A program made the translations under genes and the position numbers. Below are positions 53,561 to 53,857 of a stretch of 64,000 bases of DNA, one piece after another; positions within the stretch are counted from its first letter, which is position 1, and every line of letters starts with the position of its first letter. Source of the DNA: Methanofollis formosanus (GTDB lineage: Archaea > Halobacteriota > Methanomicrobia > Methanomicrobiales > Methanofollaceae); contig NZ_CP037968.1 of the NCBI RefSeq assembly GCF_019633745.1, positions 1,928,789 through 1,992,788 on the forward strand, read 5' to 3'. The notes beneath the pieces were generated by a model. That model saw only the letters and a list, made by a program, of their open reading frames with translations, had not been told where the DNA came from and searched no databases.

Positions 53561-53579
53561 AAGCGGATGAATCGAAAAG

Positions 53580-53654
53580 TAGCGAAGGATGGATTTGAAC
53601 CATCGGTCTACGGGTTATGGGCCCGTCGGGATCTCCTGACTACCCCACCTCGCT
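53580..53654 (-). tRNA. Initiator tRNA-Met (CAT), variant copy with C33
   Basis: A 75-base tRNA without encoded CCA. The acceptor stem begins A1-U72, and the anticodon stem has three consecutive G-C pairs next to the loop, both marks of archaeal initiators. The anticodon loop reads C-C-CAT-A-A, so position 33 is C instead of the near-universal U. Compared with the neighbouring copy there are two other changes: a G6-U67 wobble in the acceptor stem and C for T in the variable loop. The T arm GATGG-TTCAAAT-CCATC is intact. Confidence 0.9.
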
Positions 53655-53688
53655 ATCCGGGAAAAGCAGCATTTCATAATGAGAAAAG

Positions 53689-53763
53689 TAGCGAGGGATG
53701 GATTTGAACCATCGATCTACGGGTTATGAGCCCGTCGGGATCTCCTGACTACCCCACCTCGCT
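53689..53763 (-). tRNA. Initiator tRNA-Met (CAT), standard copy
   Basis: A 75-base tRNA, 34 bases upstream of the variant copy on the same strand. It has A1-U72, the three G-C pairs before the CTCATAA anticodon loop and a fully paired acceptor stem. CCA is not encoded. This copy is nearer the promoter, so both may be cut from one transcript. Confidence 0.95.
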
Positions 53764-53793: not shown

Positions 53794-53804
53794 CTATATA
53801 TAAT
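53794..53804 (-). promoter_or_regulatory. TATA box of the initiator tRNA pair
   Basis: On the minus strand the sequence AATTATATATAG lies about 33 bases before the tRNA 5' end. Transcription would start near 53772. No similar element precedes the second tRNA in the 34-base spacer, which supports a joint transcript. Confidence 0.6.
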
Positions 53805-53857
53805 TTTCTTGCATGCCTGGAGACAGATAGATTATTCTGGACGTCTCATTCCGGATC

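Follow-up and report, generated by a model that had tools for sequence, protein, structure and literature searches.

Why would an archaeon carry two initiator tRNA genes, one directly behind the other, that disagree at position 33 of the anticodon loop, where U33 is regarded as near-universal in tRNAs? The window studied here, by which we mean the whole stretch of 64,000 nucleotides of Methanofollis formosanus DNA, contains such a pair, arranged head to tail on the minus strand with 34 bases between the genes. ARAGORN and Rfam agree on both genes, in the place and with the single C33 described by the first-pass annotation. The features are as follows.

53689..53763, minus strand: initiator tRNA-Met copy A (U33, U47, G6-C67), found by ARAGORN and by Rfam RF00005 at 64.6 bits
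53580..53654, minus strand: initiator tRNA-Met copy B (C33, C47, G6-U67), found by ARAGORN and by Rfam RF00005 at 57.4 bits
53655..53688, minus strand: 34-base spacer leading from copy A to copy B, starting CTTTTC after copy A
53795..53807, minus strand: TATA-box-like element upstream of copy A, AAAATTATATATA, recognised by eye

Two tandem initiator genes

ARAGORN sets the bounds of the tRNA-Met(CAU) pair at 53688-53763 and 53579-53654 on the minus strand, and both copies score above the RF00005 gathering score of 29. With conventional tRNA position numbers inferred from the position of the anticodon, alignment of the copies gives exactly three differences in 75 positions, the count that had been annotated: position 33 (U in copy A, C in copy B), position 47 (U/C), which falls in the variable loop, and position 67 (C/U), which makes the G6-C67 pair of copy A into the annotated G6-U67 wobble in copy B. 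Both copies have the A1-U72 acceptor end that is a hallmark of archaeal initiators, as well as three G-C pairs (29-41, 30-40 and 31-39; GGG/CCC) under the anticodon loop, and in the minimum-energy fold all of their stems are able to pair. Copy A is thus a canonical archaeal initiator, including the U33 that is usual there without being defining; copy B shares the other hallmarks and differs by C33 and G6-U67. The predicted fold of copy B has an energy of -26.3 vs -29.0 kcal/mol for copy A (z-score -1.41 vs -2.43), and its D arm is partly open in the centroid fold. Relative to the mature 5' end of copy A, the TATA-box-like element lies 32 to 44 bases upstream. No clear TATA box was seen by eye in the 34-base spacer, and copy B is therefore probably co-transcribed with copy A from one promoter.

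The genome is a single contig of 2.97 Mb in which Rfam matched 45 tRNA genes; U33 is present in 44 of these, and C33 only in copy B. Two further CAU tRNA genes (L224 and L259), which we read as Ile2 and elongator Met, have acceptor stems unlike those of copies A and B, setting the initiator pair apart from elongator tRNA-Met and tRNA-Ile2(CAU). Other duplicated tRNA genes of the same genome were compared as controls: there is no difference between the Ala-GGC copies, a difference at one position between the Arg-CCT copies and at three positions in the tRNA-Pro(CGG) pair (L263, L264; G000:C1:1874865 and 2157383), and none of these differences falls inside the anticodon loop.

Six neighbouring proteins were scanned, namely a PUA protein, SepF, a ZPR1-like protein, thioredoxin, pterin dehydratase and an Lhr-like helicase. 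There was no integrase among them, and an origin from a mobile element or att site was rejected. At least one of SepF, the ZPR1-like protein, thioredoxin and pterin dehydratase adjoins the tRNA in all 11 other loci of the genus, and none does in the three loci of G212, G215 and G054.

History and conservation of copy B in Methanofollis

The family comparison covered 12 genomes, all of one genus (Methanofollis), in which the window's genome is G000. C33 initiators occur in four of them: G000, G006, G007 and G009. G006 has four tandem initiators, one with U33 and three with C33 and identical bodies (G006:C1:2713115-2713547; L015/L265). In G007 (L020, G007:C321) there are two C33 copies, of which the first is truncated where the contig ends; no U33 copy was seen, and one may lie outside the contig. 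The complete G007 copy has G37, not A37, which could reflect early decay or an assembly error. The combination of C33 with U67, as in copy B, is found in both G006 and G007. In G009 one U33 and one C33 initiator lie 296 bases apart, the C33 copy being the upstream one, with C67 and a TATA-like element of its own. The tandem arrangement is also present in the sister species G001, where the upstream copy is identical to copy A and copy B has U67 together with U33. In each of G004 and G011 there are two U33 copies, about 200 bases apart, and the remaining five genomes have a single U33 copy. In the 11 genomes that include the upstream stretch, which is missing from G007, the first copy has a TATA-like element before it. 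Two near-identical spacers in the G006 array point to recent amplification.

In a tree of aIF2-gamma, G000, G001, G006 and G007 form one clade (support 100/100), the members of which have U67 in their downstream copies, and G009 groups with G004 and G011 (support 100/99). In G000, G006 and G007 the C33 copy is downstream and has U67, whereas in G009 it is upstream, has C67 and is preceded by a TATA-like element of its own. C33 would thus most simply have arisen at least twice in Methanofollis; between-copy transfer by conversion may also lie behind this distribution. Within the four-member clade, C33 was either gained once and lost in G001 or gained twice. By parsimony C47 is the older state in the clade, which would leave copy B with two derived positions (33 and 67) and copy A with one (47). 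At position 20a, G000 and G001 have G in both of their copies, whereas complete copies elsewhere in the genus have A; such a pattern suggests that gene conversion has acted between the copies. Had conversion reached position 33, it could explain the U33 in copy B of G001.

One of 75 bases separates copy B from the G006 C33 copies, whereas aIF2-gamma differs between G000 and G006 at 70 of 199 fourfold sites (35%); for the complete G007 copy the figures are two of 75 and 82 of 196. At the G000-G006 fourfold rate, drift would be expected to leave about 26 changes, and the binomial chance of one or fewer is 3e-13. When the first spacers of G000 and G006 are aligned, 24 of the 35 columns agree, a divergence roughly like that of the fourfold sites. 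The body of copy B has been conserved while spacers and fourfold sites diverged, and it therefore appears to be kept by selection, conversion or both; conversion from copy A could contribute. The first-pass annotation had suggested that the variant might be decaying, and had listed lack of expression with accumulating changes in relatives among the refutations. The cross-species comparison speaks against this, with neither broken stems nor accumulating changes found in copy B.

C33 initiators in other archaea and bacteria

In the order, 210 of 232 genomes matched a U33-or-C33 initiator pattern, 18 of them (hand count) at least twice; the pattern requires exact GGG/CCC arms and so misses divergent initiators. 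C33 was present in seven of the 18 genomes with at least two matches vs none of the 192 with one, a difference (Fisher ~1e-8) that is uncorrected for kinship, four of the seven being Methanofollis. No A33 or G33 initiator was found in the 232 genomes. Two multi-copy genomes may be artefacts: the second match in G065 reads like a bacterial initiator, and both matches in G048 lie at contig ends. Without these two the association still stands at 7/16 vs 0/192, and contamination or assembly was rejected as the source of the multi-copy genomes. G212 and G215 are incomplete MAGs in which the two forms, C33 and U33, are found on separate contigs. For G212, contamination is argued against by the sequence CCCGAAG, present in both of its copies; the other genomes of its genus have CCCGTAG at that place.

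C33 is rare in this phylum, being found in three of 392 sampled genomes (G000, G006 and G054), two of which have both forms adjacent; the annotation had likewise called the side-by-side arrangement unusual. The C33 copy of G054 (L150/L271, G054:C1:886544) is divergent, with a U1-A72 end and a changed D loop; it lacks a clear TATA element and may be decaying. This genome has a U33 initiator elsewhere.

Across contigs of prokaryote species the exact C33-initiator pattern was matched in at least 117 stretches, and ARAGORN found 113 C33 initiator-like tRNAs among the matches listed. Among these listed matches, A1-U72 is present in 40 of 41 archaeal genes (ARAGORN ends), and C1-A72, A1-A72 or C1-U72 in 61 of 69 bacterial genes; the remaining eight misfit, and some of them may not be initiators. 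Three genes among the matches listed are in unassigned records. The bacterial taxa listed include Lactobacillaceae, Erysipelotrichaceae, Planctomycetota and Patescibacteria, and the archaeal ones Thermoplasmatota, Woesearchaeota, Pacearchaeota and other DPANN. The GGG-CCCAUAA-CCC anticodon arm of copy B recurs in the C33 initiators of Weissella, Leuconostoc, Fructobacillus, Planctomycetota, Thermoplasmatota, Pacearchaeota and others. An Erysipelotrichaceae MAG (L123) has a C33 CAU tRNA with an altered anticodon stem, GTCGG/CCGAC, by ARAGORN. Other tRNAs in the fetched loci have U33 in 276 of 277 cases, the lone exception being a CAU tRNA.

Of 50 genomes chosen from the matches listed, 47 have only C33 and no U33 match, although many are incomplete MAGs and some close kin, so that these are not 47 independent cases. 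From this count a C33 initiator is apparently able to serve alone. The three mixed genomes are G233 (the G009 MAG), G248 (a Cenarchaeum MAG whose two forms are on different contigs) and the Fructilactobacillus lindneri genome G276 (L074), where about 600 bases separate the U33 from the C33 initiator (G276:C19:70659 and 71263). Like the window, the last keeps both forms in one genome, but its initiators are of bacterial type and presumably of separate origin; in its family C33 occurs in 27 of 151 sampled genomes, 26 of them without a U33 match. The bacterial and archaeal C33 genomes checked thus have mostly C33 alone, whereas the Methanofollis window retains both forms. C33 tRNAs in our sample are nearly always initiators, and mostly the sole initiator type matched, which suggests that C33 is a tolerated, recurring alternative at position 33.

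A1-U72 and the three G-C pairs also belong to the eukaryotic initiator. Its cytoplasmic form shares C33 and the CAU anticodon with copy B, and C33 is there an accepted exception to U33, according to the available portions of PMC9023262. The eukaryotic precedent cited in the annotation therefore stands, but C33 is not solely eukaryotic, recurring in bacteria and archaea. Copy B is itself not of the eukaryotic type: its T loop is TTCAAAT, hence U54, where the eukaryotic initiator has A54 (A54-A58, same portions of PMC9023262), and it has an adjacent U33 twin. Non-U33 bacterial initiators are already published, tRNA-fMet being named as a U33 exception in the part of PMC11096365 available to us, and a non-initiator C33 is described for tRNA-Cys of Sulfolobales (PMC7668247, in part). 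No report of C33 in archaeal initiators was found in those parts of the literature that were searched.

Possible roles of the C33 initiator

The C33 of copy B is a real feature, unusual but with precedent, and most likely the substitution has arisen many times in nature. Judging from the sequences compared, copy B is probably a functional, largely redundant second initiator that acquired C33 after a tandem duplication. Its intact structure, its conservation across species, the recurrence of C33 and the existence of genomes with C33 only all support this reading, against which weigh the lower score and fold energy of copy B, the G37 of the G007 copy and the U33 of G001. The repeated appearance of C33 is also something that a mild advantage would predict more readily than drift.

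It is in A-site decoding that the U33 turn is important, a step that initiators do not undergo. Copy B would have arisen when the initiator gene was duplicated in tandem in an ancestor shared by one Methanofollis clade; with two genes present, selection on U33 would have relaxed in one copy, and U33 would there have changed to C33. The initiator is delivered by aIF2 straight to the P site, where position 33 would be held through its phosphate, and a base change could be tolerated provided that the backbone turn is kept. C33 would thus be tolerated because the initiator enters the P site directly, bypassing A-site decoding, and copy B would simply add to the initiator pool. In an archaeal 30S initiation complex, as far as the available part of PMC7005279 describes it, uS9 uses its terminal Arg to contact the phosphates of Cm32, U33 and A35, and rRNA bases, uS13 and uS19 contact the initiator G-C pairs.

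A special role in start selection, as put forward in the annotation, is possible for copy B. More broadly, C33 (with U67) may alter start-codon stringency, stability, modification or anticodon-loop nuclease resistance, with selection keeping both forms. Appearance of C33 more than once in the genus and in different copies would fit such specialisation, as would the three identical-bodied C33 copies beside one U33 in G006 and the persistence of C33 and U67 even though position 20a looks homogenised. We nevertheless consider it unlikely, given that the corresponding tandem pair in the sister G001 has U33 in copy B, that C33-only genomes show no need for both forms, and that 12 of the 12 genus genomes have one aIF2-gamma match over the curated cut-off; all further matches in these genomes fall under it, and a second matching aIF2-gamma was rejected.

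Deviations at conserved tRNA positions in eukaryotes tend to be taken for pseudogenes, according to the portions of PMC9023262 available. An early pseudogene drifting after duplication would account for the lower Rfam score and fold energy relative to copy A, the loss of U33, the G37 in one G007 copy and the lack of a clear TATA element before copy B. Such a pseudogene is quite improbable in view of one change in 75 vs 35% at fourfold sites (unless conversion hides drift), stems that are all able to pair, C33 as the sole initiator type matched in 47 of the 50 chosen genomes, and identical bodies in the three C33 copies of G006. The annotation had also named a sequencing error at the site as a refutation; an error of sequencing or assembly is very unlikely, the combination of C33 and U67 being present in the separate assemblies G006 and G007 as well.

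Returning to copy B as a second, functional initiator, one may speculate that Methanofollis stands midway in a recurrent swap, in which the initiator is duplicated, one copy acquires C33 and the U33 copy is later lost. We hold this only tentatively, as a minority possibility. If true, the swap would provide a route to the C33-only initiators of bacterial, archaeal and eukaryotic lineages, and it may be mildly favoured through looser or faster start selection or through protection from an anticodon-loop nuclease. A genome with both forms, such as that of M. formosanus, is a natural side-by-side test of position 33 in initiation.
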